34,197 nt of DNA from Deltaproteobacteria bacterium (GTDB lineage: Bacteria > CG2-30-53-67): the NCBI GenBank assembly GCA_013151235.1, contig JAADIO010000030.1, forward strand, positions 1 to 34,197, read 5' to 3'. Under the pieces are notes generated by a model. The model searched no databases, was not told where the DNA came from, and saw nothing but the letters and a program-made list of their open reading frames with translations. The translations under genes were made by a program, and so were the position numbers. Shown piece by piece: positions 9,833-17,515 of the stretch (the first letter of the stretch is position 1; each line of letters opens with the position of its first letter).

Positions 9833-10379
9833 TCCGAAACCCCCTCGATTTCATTGCAAGTGTAATCTCTCTCGAATTGCGGATGGAGCGGTCGAGGAAG
9901 AGATAGACCGCGGAAGATACGAAACGGTAGAGATCTCGCCTTCCCGGACGAATGATCGTTCGGCTCTTCATGGAGAGGAGAAGCTCGGAAAGAAGCCTCC
10001 GGAAGGTGAGGATCTGGCTGTAGGAGAGGGTCAGGAGGAATGTAAGAGTCTTCGAGAAGGAGAGGGCGGAAAAGAGGTTGACCCGTTCGATCAGCAGGAA
10101 GGTGGAGAAGGTCAAAAGATAAGTCCGTGCATTGATCAAAAGAAGGGGCGCAAGAAAAGGGGCGCCCCGGGTCATAGAGAGGAGCATATAAGAAATCGAT
10201 ACGGCCGAGTTGAAGAGGAGAAGGGCGAAGAAGGTCCTCTTCGCAAGCCTGAAAAACGAGCGGCCGGAAAACACCGCCAGCACAATGGCAGCACCCGCCA
10301 TGACCGCCATGCCGTGGAAAGAGGTAAGAAAGAGAACACCGGCAAGATAAAGGAGAAAACAAACGGAATCCCGGTTCAC
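9825..10379 (-). CDS. nikQ: ECF transporter transmembrane (T) component, NikQ/CbiQ type
   Basis: A 184-residue protein with several hydrophobic segments and the C-terminal coupling helices: a KSRTIIRPGRR region and the final AMKSRGF. These correspond to the two Arg/Gly-containing ATPase-coupling motifs of EcfT proteins. It is shorter than typical CbiQ (~220-260 residues), mainly at the N-terminus. It overlaps nikN upstream by 4 bases and nikO downstream by 8, so translation is coupled. It joins NikM/NikN to the NikO ATPase in the inner membrane. Confidence 0.85.
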   Translation of the reverse strand: MNRDSVCFLLYLAGVLFLTSFHGMAVMAGAAIVLAVFSGRSFFRLAKRTFFALLLFNSAVSISYMLLSMTRGAPFLAPLLLINARTYLLTFSTFLLIERVNLFSALSFSKTLTFLLTLSYSQILTFRRLLSELLLSMKSRTIIRPGRRDLYRFVSSAVYLFLDRSIRNSREITLAMKSRGFRND

Positions 10380-10684
10380 TTCCGCCCCCTCCCGTCAAAC
10401 CTGCTCCAGGCAAAAAAGATCCCGAAGATCAGAACGATTCCGATTACCGCCGACAGGTAATATCCGAGTACGGCGCCGTGCCCCTCCAACTGATATCCGG
10501 AAATCGGGGCTTGGTACCACGAGGCGAAGTGCCGGAGCCGCTCCGGGATAAAACCGAGGAGCGTCCTGTAATAGTCCGCCTCCCATTCTCCCCAGGCCGG
10601 ACTGGTCGTCAGAAGCCCCAAGGGCACGAGCAGGAGGAAGAGGCCGATGAGCAGATAGAGCTTTTTTACATTATTCTTCTTCAT
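10376..10684 (-). CDS. nikN: Small membrane subunit of nickel/cobalt ECF transporter (NikN/CbiN, PDGLE-related)
   Basis: A 102-residue protein with an N-terminal transmembrane helix (~9-26), a periplasmic loop and a C-terminal helix (~73-92). This is the topology of NikN/CbiN-type accessory subunits that assist the M component. The loop starts LTTSPAWGEWE where PDGLE-domain proteins normally carry the PDGLE motif, and APISGYQ stands for the usual second conserved site, so it is a divergent member. It overlaps nikM by 14 bases and nikQ by 4. Position between M and Q genes is the main support for the role. Confidence 0.75.
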   Translation of the reverse strand: MKKNNVKKLYLLIGLFLLLVPLGLLTTSPAWGEWEADYYRTLLGFIPERLRHFASWYQAPISGYQLEGHGAVLGYYLSAVIGIVLIFGIFFAWSRFDGRGRK

Positions 10685-11348
10685 CTCTCACCTCCACAGG
10701 AAAGCCCTCCGGACGGATCCGCCGGACGAAGTTCAGGACCAGGACCGTAAAAATTCCCTCCGCCACGCCGAAGAAGAGCATGTGTGCACCGACCAGGGCC
10801 GGGACGGTCACCGAAATCGGAAAAGGAAAGAAGAGCGGTTTCCCGGCCGAGTCGGCGGCGATCACCGGCTGAATTCCGAGGGCCAGCGCAATCCCGACCG
10901 ACGCGAGGACGATGCTCGACCACCCGGAGAGAAACGCGGCGACGGAACGCCGGATCCGCTTCTCAAGAAACGGATAGAGCCAGGCGGCCGTAAAGGCGGC
11001 GATGCAGCCCATGGTCAGGGCATTGATCGGGAAGGAGGTGATCCCCCCGTCCCCGAAGAGGAGCGCCTGGATCAAAAGGACCAGGCTCACGGAGAGAAAG
11101 CCGGTCCAGGGACCGAAGAGGATGGCGATCACCGCCGTCCCGATGGCGTGCCCGCTCGTCCCGCCGGGGATCGGGATGTTCAACATCATGATCATGAAGG
11201 ACAGCGCGGTCAGGGCCGATATGAATGGAAGCGTCTCCTCGTTAAGGAGCCTCCTGACCCGCCGGAAGGCATGGACCCACAGCGGCACCGCGACAGCGTA
11301 TGCCGGCAGATAGGTCACAGGTGAGAGATACCCGTCCGGAATGTGCAT
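10671..11348 (-). CDS. nikM: Nickel/cobalt ECF transporter substrate-binding S component, NikM/CbiM
   Basis: A 225-residue membrane protein. The invariant N-terminus MHIPDGYLSP is present: in this family Met1, His2 and a later His form the square-planar metal site, and His67 (GGTSGHAIGTA) is at the expected place. Six to seven hydrophobic segments follow. It binds Ni(II) or Co(II) in the inner membrane and works with NikN, NikQ and NikO encoded directly downstream. It starts 46 bases after the porin stop with no obvious promoter between, so it is probably in one transcript with the porin. Nickel is favoured by the neighbouring nikR. Confidence 0.93.
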   Translation of the reverse strand: MHIPDGYLSPVTYLPAYAVAVPLWVHAFRRVRRLLNEETLPFISALTALSFMIMMLNIPIPGGTSGHAIGTAVIAILFGPWTGFLSVSLVLLIQALLFGDGGITSFPINALTMGCIAAFTAAWLYPFLEKRIRRSVAAFLSGWSSIVLASVGIALALGIQPVIAADSAGKPLFFPFPISVTVPALVGAHMLFFGVAEGIFTVLVLNFVRRIRPEGFPVEVRDEEE

Positions 11349-12771: not shown

Positions 12772-13191
12772 TCAGGCAAGCCCTTTGCCCGCCGTTGCCA
12801 GCGTCAACTTCCCGTGCTTCACCCCCTTCGTCCCGATCAGCCGGTCGGCCAGTTGCCGGATCTTATTCGCTTTCCCCCTGACGACAAGGACCTCAAGGCA
12901 GTTGCGGGCATCCATGTGTACATGCATGGAGGAGATAATCAACTCGTGGTGGCCGTGCTGCATGTGGGTCAGGTGGTCGGAGAGCTCCCGCGTCTCATGA
13001 TTATAGACGAGGGTGATCGTCCCGACCGTTTCCTTCGTCCCCACGGTCCACTCCTCCCGGACAAGCCGGTCCCGAATCAGGTCCCGGATTGCCTCGGAAC
13101 GGCTCCCGTACCCCTTGCCGTGAATGAGATGATCGAACCGCTCTAAAAGTTCCGTCTCGATGGAGACGCCGAAACGCGTAATTCCCGACAT
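12772..13191 (-). CDS. nikR: Nickel-responsive transcriptional regulator
   Basis: 139 residues from the ATG at 13191, with AGGGA 6 bases before it. The N-terminal ribbon-helix-helix ([19 protein letters not shown]...[14 protein letters not shown]) binds DNA. The C-terminal ACT-like domain carries all four nickel ligands: H79, H90, H92 and C98, equal to H76/H87/H89/C95 of E. coli NikR. With nickel bound, NikR usually represses nickel uptake genes. A NikR-type operator covers its own promoter, so autoregulation is likely. The genes downstream (porin, nikMNQO) are the obvious targets. It follows tonB by about 50 bases. Confidence 0.96.
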
Positions 13192-13207
13192 GATTTCCCT
13201 CAAGTTT

Positions 13208-13234: not shown

Positions 13235-13244
13235 GGAATGTCAA
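13216..13244 (-). promoter_or_regulatory. Promoter of nikR
   Basis: On the minus strand TTGACA (13239-13244) and TATAAA (13216-13221) are 17 bases apart, a near-consensus sigma70 promoter. The -35 box overlaps the tonB stop codon and the -10 box and spacer lie within the NikR operator. Confidence 0.7.
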
Positions 13245-13960
13245 GGATTATTTTTCAGCCGGTAACGGATGCGGACCTCCATGGGAAGTCCCCCCTCCCT
13301 GCGGCACCCCGGCGGCGGCGGTGGAAAAGGCGCGGCCCTGCGGAGAGAGGTAAGCGCCGCATCCCGGAGAATCCTCCCGCCGGTGGAACCGGGCGCCGCC
13401 CCTTCCTCCCGGACCCCACCATCCGGCAGGAGCAGAAACCGCAGGATTACATCCCCTTCGATCCTCCTTCGTCTTGCGCGAAAGGGATACCGTTTCTCCC
13501 CCGCGATCCGTTCCAGGATCAACGTCCTGTACGCGTCGGGGACCCCTTCTTCTCCCCGTCTTGCCGCCGGGGCGGACCGGCCGGCAATGTGGTATTCACC
13601 GGCCGCGGCAGCCAAAGGAACCGGATCCTGCTCCTTCTCCCTGATCAGGTTTCCGGCATCGGAGGGAAGAGGCCGGACGTTCCTTCTCTCTTCACTATGC
13701 GCTTTCATCCTCTTTGCGACGGGAGACAAGACCCGCCTCTTCCCGGCCCTCCGGCGCCGCGCGACGGCGGGACGTGGAGCGGCCCCTTTCCTGCAGCGGG
13801 CCAAAGCTCCGCCGGTCCCCTCCGCCTCTTTCACGATCCGCAGCGGGATAAGGACGCCGGACCCGGTTCCGGTCAGCAAGGGCGGGCGCCACGGGGCGGC
13901 CATCAGCAGGAAACCGTGCAGGAGGAGGGAGAGGAGCAGCGCTACATGAACAGGTCTCAT
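13241..13960 (-). CDS. tonB: TonB energy-transducing protein
   Basis: A 239-residue protein with an N-terminal membrane anchor ([15 protein letters not shown]) containing the SxxxH motif that contacts ExbB/ExbD, a periplasmic linker, and a C-terminal TonB domain at about 150-236 ([42 protein letters not shown]). It transmits the proton-motive force to the outer-membrane receptor. The linker is Arg/Ala-rich (RRRRAGKRR) instead of the usual Pro/Glu/Lys repeats. Its start overlaps the exbD stop by 4 bases. It is probably dedicated to the BtuB-like receptor encoded in the same operon. Confidence 0.9.
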
Positions 13961-14379
13961 TTCCCTTCTCCGCCCCTCGCCCCTTTCCGCCTGCCCGCGA
14001 TGAAGAGGGCATCCGCCCCCGCCCCGGAGACCGACTCCAGGACATGTACCACAACGCCGTAGGGGGCATGCTCGTCGCCACGGATTACGACGGTCTTCGT
14101 CCCCTTCCTTCCCATCTCCCTGCGCAGGAGGGCGGCAAGATCATCCTCGCCGGCCCTCCGGCCGTCCAGGGAGGTCCCGCCGGAGCGGTCAATCGTAAGG
14201 ACGATCCGATTCCCTCTTTCGGATCTCCCGCGGCCGATCTCCGGGAGGTCGATCCCGAGGTTCAACGGGGCCGTGAAGCTCGCAGTCAGGAGGAAGAAGA
14301 CGAGGAGGAGGAAGACCATGTCAATCAACGGGGTCATGTCAAACCCGGCCGGGATTCGGCGTCTCTTCCTAAACTCCAT
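13957..14379 (-). CDS. exbD: ExbD/TolR-family proton-channel subunit
   Basis: 140 residues with one N-terminal transmembrane helix (DMTPLIDMVFLLLVFFLL) carrying the essential Asp, here D20 (D25 of E. coli ExbD), then a periplasmic ExbD domain with LNLGIDLPE and the family-typical VVIRGDEHAPYG. With ExbB it forms the proton channel that drives TonB. It overlaps exbB by 11 bases and tonB by 4, so the three are translationally coupled. Position with tonB favours ExbD over TolR. Confidence 0.93.
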   Translation of the reverse strand: MEFRKRRRIPAGFDMTPLIDMVFLLLVFFLLTASFTAPLNLGIDLPEIGRGRSERGNRIVLTIDRSGGTSLDGRRAGEDDLAALLRREMGRKGTKTVVIRGDEHAPYGVVVHVLESVSGAGADALFIAGRRKGARGGEGK

Positions 14380-15031
14380 AGAGATCCTCCACCGTTGCAG
14401 GAATCTCGACCGGCCCGGCGGCGGAGGACTCCGCCTTCGCTTCGAGGACCAGGGATACGGCCTCCTTCATCCCGGCCTCGACCCTGTCCGCCGCCGACTC
14501 AAAGAGATGGGACGCGGCAAGGGCCGGTACGGCCACAATGAGCCCGGCCGCCGTGGTCAGCATCGCCTCCCACAACCCCCCGGCAAGCAGGGTGACATTG
14601 GTGACCCCCCCGGCCGCCTCGATGCTCATGAAGACGCGGATCATACCGGTCACGGTCCCGAGGAGGCCGAGCAGCGGGGTAATCCGGGCGAGGAGGGCAA
14701 GTCCCGGCAGGTACCGCTCCAGTCTCCCCAACTCCACCGATCCGACCCGCAGGACCGCCTCTTCGCACCGCCTGCGTCCCTCCCCGATCCGCTCCAGGGC
14801 GGTCAGGGCCACGGCGGCGACGGGACCCGGCCGGCGGCGGGCAAGTGCGGCGGCGTCATGAAACCTTCCGTCGCGGATCAGCCTCTCAAATTCTTCCCGG
14901 AAACTCCGGGCCTTCCATCCCGCACGGACATAGTGATAGAACCGGTCCAGGATCAGCGCCGTGCCGATCACCGAACAGAGGAGGAGGGGCGCCATCAGCG
15001 CCCCCCCCTTCCAGATGAACTGCCACATCAT
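14369..15031 (-). CDS. exbB: ExbB/TolQ/MotA-family proton-channel protein
   Basis: 220 residues. A hydrophobic helix at ~10-30 (APLLLCSVIGTALILDRFY) is followed by a cytoplasmic helical region (GRRRCEEAVLRVGS) and two further helices (LGLLGTVTGMIRVF and EAMLTTAAGLIVAVPALAA) that are the signature of MotA/TolQ/ExbB proteins. Two consecutive ATGs (15031, 15028) follow AAGGAG; either may start. The gene lies 24 bases after the receptor gene and overlaps exbD. Confidence 0.93.
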   Translation of the reverse strand: MMWQFIWKGGALMAPLLLCSVIGTALILDRFYHYVRAGWKARSFREEFERLIRDGRFHDAAALARRRPGPVAAVALTALERIGEGRRRCEEAVLRVGSVELGRLERYLPGLALLARITPLLGLLGTVTGMIRVFMSIEAAGGVTNVTLLAGGLWEAMLTTAAGLIVAVPALAASHLFESAADRVEAGMKEAVSLVLEAKAESSAAGPVEIPATVEDLYGV

Positions 15032-16960: not shown

Positions 16961-17009
16961 CTTACATCTCCTTCTCTCCCCCCTCGGGGATCATTGGTTT
17001 TCAACCCCT

Positions 17010-17190
17010 CCGGACCGGGTATCCTGGCTCGAGTTCATCCTACAGGCCGCGCCTTCCCGTCCGATCGACAGTGGCATGCTGCGGCGTTCGTCCCTCTCAC
17101 AGTCGCGGGGCGGCGGGAGCATCGCACTCCCTTCCCGCGGTCCGGGAGACCATGGAAAAATTACGTAATTCATAAGGCACCCGCCTTCCC
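17010..17190 (-). ncRNA. Cobalamin riboswitch (proximal, btuB leader)
   Basis: The minus strand shows the B12-element landmarks in order: GGTGCC near 17181; a hairpin region (GGGAAGGGAGTGCGATGCTCCC region); CCCGCGACTGT; GCATGCCACTGTCG; GGACGGGAAGGCGCGG; GATGAACTCGAGCCAGGATACC at about 17018-17036. It ends roughly 50 bases before the btuB start. No terminator lies between it and btuB, so control is probably at translation initiation. The exact P1 ends are approximate. Confidence 0.88.
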
Positions 17191-17257
17191 TGTATCACCT
17201 CCCTTCCCCGTCCGCCCGACCCTTCGGCCGGCTCATGACAGGCCCTTCGACATACTC

Positions 17258-17288
17258 AAAAAAAAATCCCGGGCAAAAGTGCCCGGGA
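17258..17288 (-). terminator. Intrinsic terminator between the two riboswitches
   Basis: On the minus strand TCCCGGGC and GCCCGGGA form an 8-bp GC-rich stem with a 6-base loop, followed by nine T residues. It lies about 60 bases downstream of the distal riboswitch and well upstream of btuB, which fits a transcription-terminating expression platform. Confidence 0.88.
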
Positions 17289-17344
17289 TCCCCTGATTTT
17301 ATCCTCGCAACCGCTCCCCTCCTTTACCACGGAAGGAAAAGCAC

Positions 17345-17515
17345 TCGTACCACCGGCAGGTCTTCTGGTTCCCGGATCAGCCTACTCGCCGCGCCTTCCC
17401 ATCCCGAACGAACAGTGACTTTCCTGCGGCTTTCGTCCCCGGTTACAGCGGCGGGTCCACTCCCGATTCTCACGGGATTCCCTCTCTCATCCTGCAACAG
17501 GAACCGATGGTATTC
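17345..17515 (-). ncRNA. Cobalamin riboswitch (distal)
   Basis: On the minus strand the landmarks are complete: ATACCATCGG (P1 5' side), GGGAATCCCGTGAGAATCGGGAG, GGACCCGCCGCTGTAACCGG, GCCGCAGGAAAGTCACTGTTC, GGGATGGGAAGGCGCGGC and GGAACCAGAAGACCTGCC. The 3' CCGGTGGTA pairs with the 5' ATACCATCGG. It is followed by the intrinsic terminator at 17258-17288. Confidence 0.92.

Follow-up and report, generated by a model that had tools for sequence, protein, structure and literature searches.

The stretch of DNA analysed here (the window, 34 kb of contig JAADIO010000030.1 of genome G000) raises the question of why a single leader ahead of a btuB-like gene should carry two cobalamin riboswitches, and how they came to stand next to each other. 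The leader and its operon lie on the minus strand, and positions are those of the window unless another locus is named. A cmscan search of the whole window returned two RNA-family matches, both to RF00174 (Cobalamin), on the minus strand and over the full model (1-189), and both exceed the gathering score of 31.5 bits (Table 1). This covariance-model check bears out an earlier note on this DNA, which had described two complete cobalamin aptamers in series without naming their strand. We name the receptor gene btuB because its best NCBIfam match is the B12-receptor model TIGR01779 (387.6 bits, below the curated cut-off of 599.7) and because two cobalamin switches precede it. The sequence itself shows the two aptamers, the terminator, where the Shine-Dalgarno site lies and one upstream promoter, and every element has an ortholog in the sister species. 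We consider it likely that two cobalamin OFF riboswitches, independent of each other, form a homotypic tandem in the btuB-exbB-exbD-tonB leader, the first acting on transcription and the second on translation, and that this tandem was formed by the loss of btuFCD. Directly 3' of tonB lies the gene of the nickel regulator NikR (12772-13203, minus strand), which sits between the B12-uptake genes and the genes for an OprB-type porin and a CbiM/CbiO cobalt-nickel transporter.

Table 1. Elements of the tandem leader and of the operon behind it, in window coordinates.
Feature	Position	Strand	Remarks
Promoter-like site TTGACA-17-TAATTT	17561-17533	-	Best site of the region; TTGACA and TAnnnT kept in same-genus G001
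Aptamer 1, class I cobalamin riboswitch, complete, including a P2 arm and the P8-P12-type extension	17523-17338	-	RF00174 103.9 bits, E 3e-25
L5 of aptamer 1 (ACCCG), candidate kissing-loop strand	17452-17456	-	Can pair with L13 CG(U)GGU, one U bulging out; L5 and L13 strands kept in G001
P13-L13 hairpin of aptamer 1, GUGGU in loop	17314-17339	-	9 bp; stem in G001 11 bp, different sequence
Intrinsic terminator: stem 17289-17266 with GGGG/UUUU extension, then U9 (17266-17258)	17258-17293	-	-22.7 kcal/mol
Dispersed repeat copy (~42 nt) at the btuFCD-less junction	17217-17258	-	About 40 partial or full copies in G000
Junction segment in place of btuFCD (2.7 kb in G001)	17187-17254	-	G001 homology break
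Aptamer 2, cobalamin riboswitch without P2 arm, J6/3 = AUA	17169-16997	-	RF00174 85.0 bits, E 9e-20
Putative translational expression platform	16961-16996	-	Layout shared with the btuB-like genes of G001, G038 and G031; terminator absent
Short hairpin UCCCC-GAGG-GGGGA, 3' of aptamer 2	16990-16977	-	
Shine-Dalgarno AGAAGGAG of btuB-like gene	16975-16968	-	
btuB-like TonB-dependent outer-membrane receptor, 634 aa	15056-16960	-	PF00593 and PF07715
exbB-like (MotA/TolQ/ExbB)	14369-15031	-	PF01618
exbD-like	13957-14379	-	PF02472
tonB-like	13241-13960	-	PF03544

The two switches differ in what follows them. When the whole window was scanned for hairpins that fold at -12 kcal/mol or better and have six or more T behind them, the terminator behind aptamer 1 was the sole strong one in the 34 kb on either strand, with a core stem of 10 bp (17289-17266), or 15 bp counting G-U pairs, which confirms the strong terminator that the earlier note had placed after the distal, that is promoter-proximal, aptamer. 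The built-in terminator scan of the window misses this terminator at 17258-17293. The same hairpin and T-tract scan gave no terminator between aptamer 2 and the btuB start codon (16960), and here too the earlier description, of a second aptamer adjoining the btuB ribosome binding site with no terminator, holds. Aptamer 2 is likely to act on translation, as its end is just 37 nt away from the start codon and a terminator is absent; the P13-like hairpin on its 3' side stops shortly before the Shine-Dalgarno site and lies beside it, without clearly covering it. P13 and terminator of aptamer 1 both lie ahead of aptamer 2, and the two aptamers share no expression platform; a cooperative tandem of the glycine type, with two aptamers on one platform, does not fit this layout. 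The 168 nt between the aptamers hold no gene-sized ORF, and 88 nt of junction separate the terminator from aptamer 2. A search for an antiterminator of aptamer 1 gave no candidate kept beyond the genus; one candidate (17379-17369, a segment of aptamer 1 itself) can pair with the 5' arm of the terminator in the window and G001 only, which is not covariation.

In published models of cobalamin riboswitches the ligand stabilises a kissing loop between L5 and L13, whereby a terminator is promoted or the ribosome binding site is hidden (PMC10653944, PMC11260477). Complementarity between L5 and L13 is found, at sequence level only, in both aptamers (ACCCG/CG(U)GGU in aptamer 1, CCCC/GGGG in aptamer 2), and among the aptamer-2-type switches CCCCG/CGGGG of G001 and G038 stands against CCCGG/CCGGG of G031, a matched change. 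At high cobalamin, aptamer 1 would act through its intrinsic terminator and most transcription would stop at 17258, while the transcripts that read through would carry aptamer 2, which would restrict ribosome access to the btuB start and leave these transcripts poorly translated. For this sequence of events we infer ligand binding, the OFF sign, the continuity of the transcript and the dose response.

The likely origin of the arrangement became visible in the comparison with related genomes, of which the set comprised one of the same genus (G001), four of the same family and two of the same class. Positions 17601-17255, with the promoter, aptamer 1 and the terminator, match 4349-3997 (minus strand) of G001 locus L055 at 84.5% identity, and the order there is promoter, aptamer 1, terminator, a BtuF-like binding protein, a FecCD/BtuC-type permease, an ABC ATPase, aptamer 2 and btuB. 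The aptamer 2 ortholog lies at L055 1228-1065, about 40 nt past the ATPase gene, and btuB starts at 1030, leaves the contig end and continues on contig C49 with exbB-exbD-tonB synteny matching the window. Homology ends just past the U-tract of the terminator at 17255 (L055 3997) and resumes at 17186 (L055 1256), and the 2.7 kb btuFCD block of G001 is absent from the window. Identity between the two genomes is 92.5% for aptamer 1 and 78.2% for aptamer 2, as compared to 50.6% at the third codon positions of btuB, suggesting that both aptamers were under strong constraint for most of the time since the species split; this conservation does not prove constraint on aptamer 1 after the deletion.

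The seam itself is marked by a repeat of ~42 nt (17258-17217, TGAGTATGTCGAAGGGCCTGTCMTGAGCCGGCCGAAGGGTCG-like), which with the same query was detected neither in G001 nor in the four same-family genomes, the result in its own genome serving as positive control. An operon with two switches would thus have lost the btuFCD genes that separated them, and a lineage-specific repeat would mark the place. With a single sister genome at hand we infer this direction of change from two points: transcriptional switches ordinarily have a gene directly behind their terminator, and the repeat occurs only where the genes are missing. A putative 3' remnant of btuD at the junction (GAAGGGAGGTGA compared with GAAAGGAGGTGA) was rejected as not significant, as 156 of 2000 shuffles score as well, and it lies partly inside the repeat. 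A Shine-Dalgarno-like stretch (AAAGGAGGTG / AAGGGAGGTGA) precedes the P2-less aptamer on the minus strand in the window (about 17205-17195), in L055 (about 1282-1270) and in L058 (about 2458-2446); in G001 this stretch coincides with the end of btuD, and in G038 no gene was found ending there.

The only other btuF and btuC set in G000 lies on contig C32, its proteins being 43% and 49% identical to those of G001. A second btuFCD set was looked for in G001 and not found, only the BtuC on C92, and therefore the two species keep different btuFCD copies. The C32 btuFCD set (L067 8058-11167, minus strand) is 41-50% identical to the G001 operon genes and has its own cobalamin switch and terminator-like hairpin. 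G001 carries a further cobalamin switch on contig C224 (L056 9031-9200, plus strand), with a CbiM-like gene (10335-11084) about 1.1 kb further downstream; no counterpart of this switch was found in G000, and the window cbiM (11348-10671) is without a switch.

In G001 no promoter-like site above a score of 3.5 was found before the aptamer 2 ortholog, and btuB is for this reason probably under both switches there, with btuFCD under the first only. btuB was thus probably already under both checks before the tandem formed. The tighter or steeper control that the earlier note had suggested is possible, but it probably did not arise with the tandem.

The arrangement is found outside the genus as well. 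G038, the sole genome of its phylum in the set, has the same gene-free tandem: the terminator of a complete aptamer is followed, after about 100 nt, by a P2-less aptamer and then by the gene of a TonB-dependent receptor. G031 belongs to another phylum, in which the search covered three genomes, and there a complete aptamer and terminator are followed by cobU, cobT, cobS, a P2-less aptamer, btuB (49% identical to the window btuB), exbB and exbD. A transcriptional switch followed by a P2-less, probably translational switch before btuB is accordingly a recurrent order, in which the intervening genes vary or are absent. Close same-strand RF00174 pairs in a 60-genome list were clear in G000 and G038 and weak in G004 and G045, and a 290-genome survey comprises the best 150 RF00174 matches only, missing weak second aptamers, and is no basis for tandem counts. 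G004, of the same family, shows two adjacent weak RF00174 matches of 33.9 and 34.4 bits, 40 nt apart (L057 1547-1915), which represent a degenerate tandem or else a single unusual aptamer that the model hit twice. We tentatively suggest that AdoCbl pairs with the terminator first and translation second could form a recurrent module before btuB in poorly sampled phyla, derived from operon switches flanking btuFCD or cobUTS and made gene-free by loss, with a P2-less second aptamer that is tuned differently.

The comparison with G001 also lends itself to a reading that we regard as unlikely, though it deserves serious attention, namely that aptamer 1 and its terminator are merely left over from the btuFCD loss; they may work, but the doubling would be without selected function and aptamer 1 would be free to decay. 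The sister layout, which places btuFCD after aptamer 1, and the lineage-specific repeat at the junction agree with such a relic. However, the promoter, aptamer 1, P13 and terminator are all intact in the window (weak evidence, as it depends on the age of the deletion), btuB depends on the promoter in this leader, and the same gene-free tandem occurs independently in G038.

A second question is whether both switches of such a tandem respond to the same ligand. Class I cobalamin riboswitches, which are AdoCbl-selective, differ from class II by a P8-P12-type extension that leaves from P6 (PMC11260477). This extension was aligned in both aptamers, and both would thus be class I and most likely of the AdoCbl type. 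Aptamer 1 has a P2 stem-loop whereas aptamer 2 has none, and the counterparts of aptamer 2 in G001, G038 and G031 appear P2-less too. P1 of aptamer 2 is longer than that of aptamer 1 (CUCCCGGACCG/CGGUCCGGAGG, 10/11 pairs) and differs from G001 by one two-sided and one one-sided compensated change, and in the remainder of aptamer 2 almost all standard model pairs are kept in the window genome and G001. The B12 box of aptamer 1, CCAGAAGACC, fits GGARACC with a purine at J6/3, whereas that of aptamer 2, CCAGGAUACC, departs from it by a U in J6/3 and is the sole deviant among 31 scored aptamers, the other 30 having G (28) or A (2) at this position. J6/3 motifs help to tell the classes of cobalamin switches apart (PMC11260477). 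The U could weaken or shift the ligand preference of aptamer 2, and together with the missing P2 it may reduce its affinity.

If the two aptamers sensed different forms of the vitamin (AdoCbl as opposed to MeCbl/HyCbl, or different corrinoids), the leader would be a two-input gate, and the lack of P2 and the AUA of J6/3, where 30 other scored aptamers have a middle purine, would be in keeping with this. We find it improbable, as RF00174 is the best match for both aptamers, the AdoCbl-selective class I extension is shared, and J6/3 is normal in the switches that correspond to aptamer 2 in G001 and G038. Because the extension is present in both, aptamer 2 is not read as a sensor of a different corrinoid, and the idea of two different corrinoids in the earlier note is not upheld, the J6/3 substitution being the sole contrary hint.

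Whether one RNA carries both switches depends on the promoters. The promoter at 17561-17533 scores 12.5, and a score of 11 is reached by only 3 of the 367 minus-strand window tiles (93 nt each; median 3.8, 95th percentile 8.8). In a search of the gap between the aptamers, the best promoter-like site wholly inside it scores 4.5, near the tile median. A weak promoter-like GTGATA-18-TATGAA at 17198-17169, with a score of 7.0, overlaps the start of aptamer 2 and could be taken to split the leader into two units, of which aptamer 1 would yield its own short terminated RNA and the inter-aptamer promoter would drive aptamer 2 and btuB. This is quite improbable, since the score lies under the 95th tile percentile, the site runs into aptamer 2 and the best score at the corresponding place in G001 is 3.5. 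As the sole convincing promoter is upstream of aptamer 1, both switches are probably on one transcript. The earlier claim of one transcript checked twice is hence supported as regards the promoters, with one upstream and no convincing one between the aptamers, and as a whole it is probable only. Of the outcomes that the earlier note had named as refuting, neither an aptamer scoring under the threshold nor a separating promoter was thus encountered.

That the junction lies on a 42-nt repeat of about 40 copies, in a genome assembly of 73 contigs, could also mean that btuFCD still stands between the switches and was skipped by the assembler across the repeat. We consider this very improbable, because no orthologous btuF or btuC is found elsewhere in G000, which is 99.25% complete, because 42 nt is short for most assembly k-mers, and because the repeat was not detected in G001. 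A tandem duplication of one aptamer inside the leader would yield two homologous aptamers in series, but it can practically be dismissed, as they share 59% identity over their full length (113/192 columns), aptamer 1 has more in common with the C32 switch (131/194), P2 and platform differ, and each aptamer has its own G001 ortholog, by which a recent duplication is refuted.

Multiple aptamers are present in <1% of AdoCbl and TPP leaders (PMC2258182). A study that did not assess the mechanisms for all tandems counted 26 AdoCbl doublets and classed them as pseudo-cooperative (PMC9481103). Like the tandem of the window, these doublets have two AdoCbl-type aptamers with their own platforms in one leader, with no intervening gene and less than 300 nt apart, but no AdoCbl pair with the terminator first and translation second was described there. 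Such 'bi-mechanism' pairs are described for SAM-II/SAM-V and some SAM-II doublets (PMC9481103). The SAM-II/SAM-V tandems resemble the window pair, as we read it, in that the first switch ends transcription and the second acts on translation initiation, for the same gene and ligand; they differ in ligand and aptamer classes, whereas both aptamers here belong to RF00174 and would share a ligand by their class. The tandem TPP riboswitch of Bacillus anthracis tenA, as presented in the papers that cite it (PMC9481103, PMC12121620), likewise has two complete switches of the same class with an expected steeper response, but both act by transcription termination. In the E. coli btuB cobalamin riboswitch (PMC2258182) the aptamer also adjoins the btuB ribosome binding site and exerts the translational OFF control that is predicted for aptamer 2, but this switch is single, whereas the second aptamer of the window is P2-less and preceded by a complete transcriptional switch. 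Switches of these two types stand in this order before btuB also in the switch-btuFCD-switch-btuB locus of G001 and the switch-cobUTS-switch-btuB locus of G031, but these have three cobalamin genes in between. A full-text search of the open-access literature, with most subscription papers outside its scope, found no paper on a bi-mechanism cobalamin pair. Of interest here are hence the proposed mixed mechanism and the likely origin by gene loss, the latter being new, while AdoCbl doublets and bi-mechanism SAM tandems were already published.

Tandem riboswitches have mostly been discussed by what they compute, and their origin is seldom visible, whereas G001 shows the likely earlier state of this one. 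The comparison points to a concrete route by which a tandem may form, through gene loss and not through aptamer duplication, and a tandem formed in this way need not have been selected for steepness. In addition, the natural gene-free and three-gene versions would allow a terminator-plus-translation pair from one ligand class to be compared.
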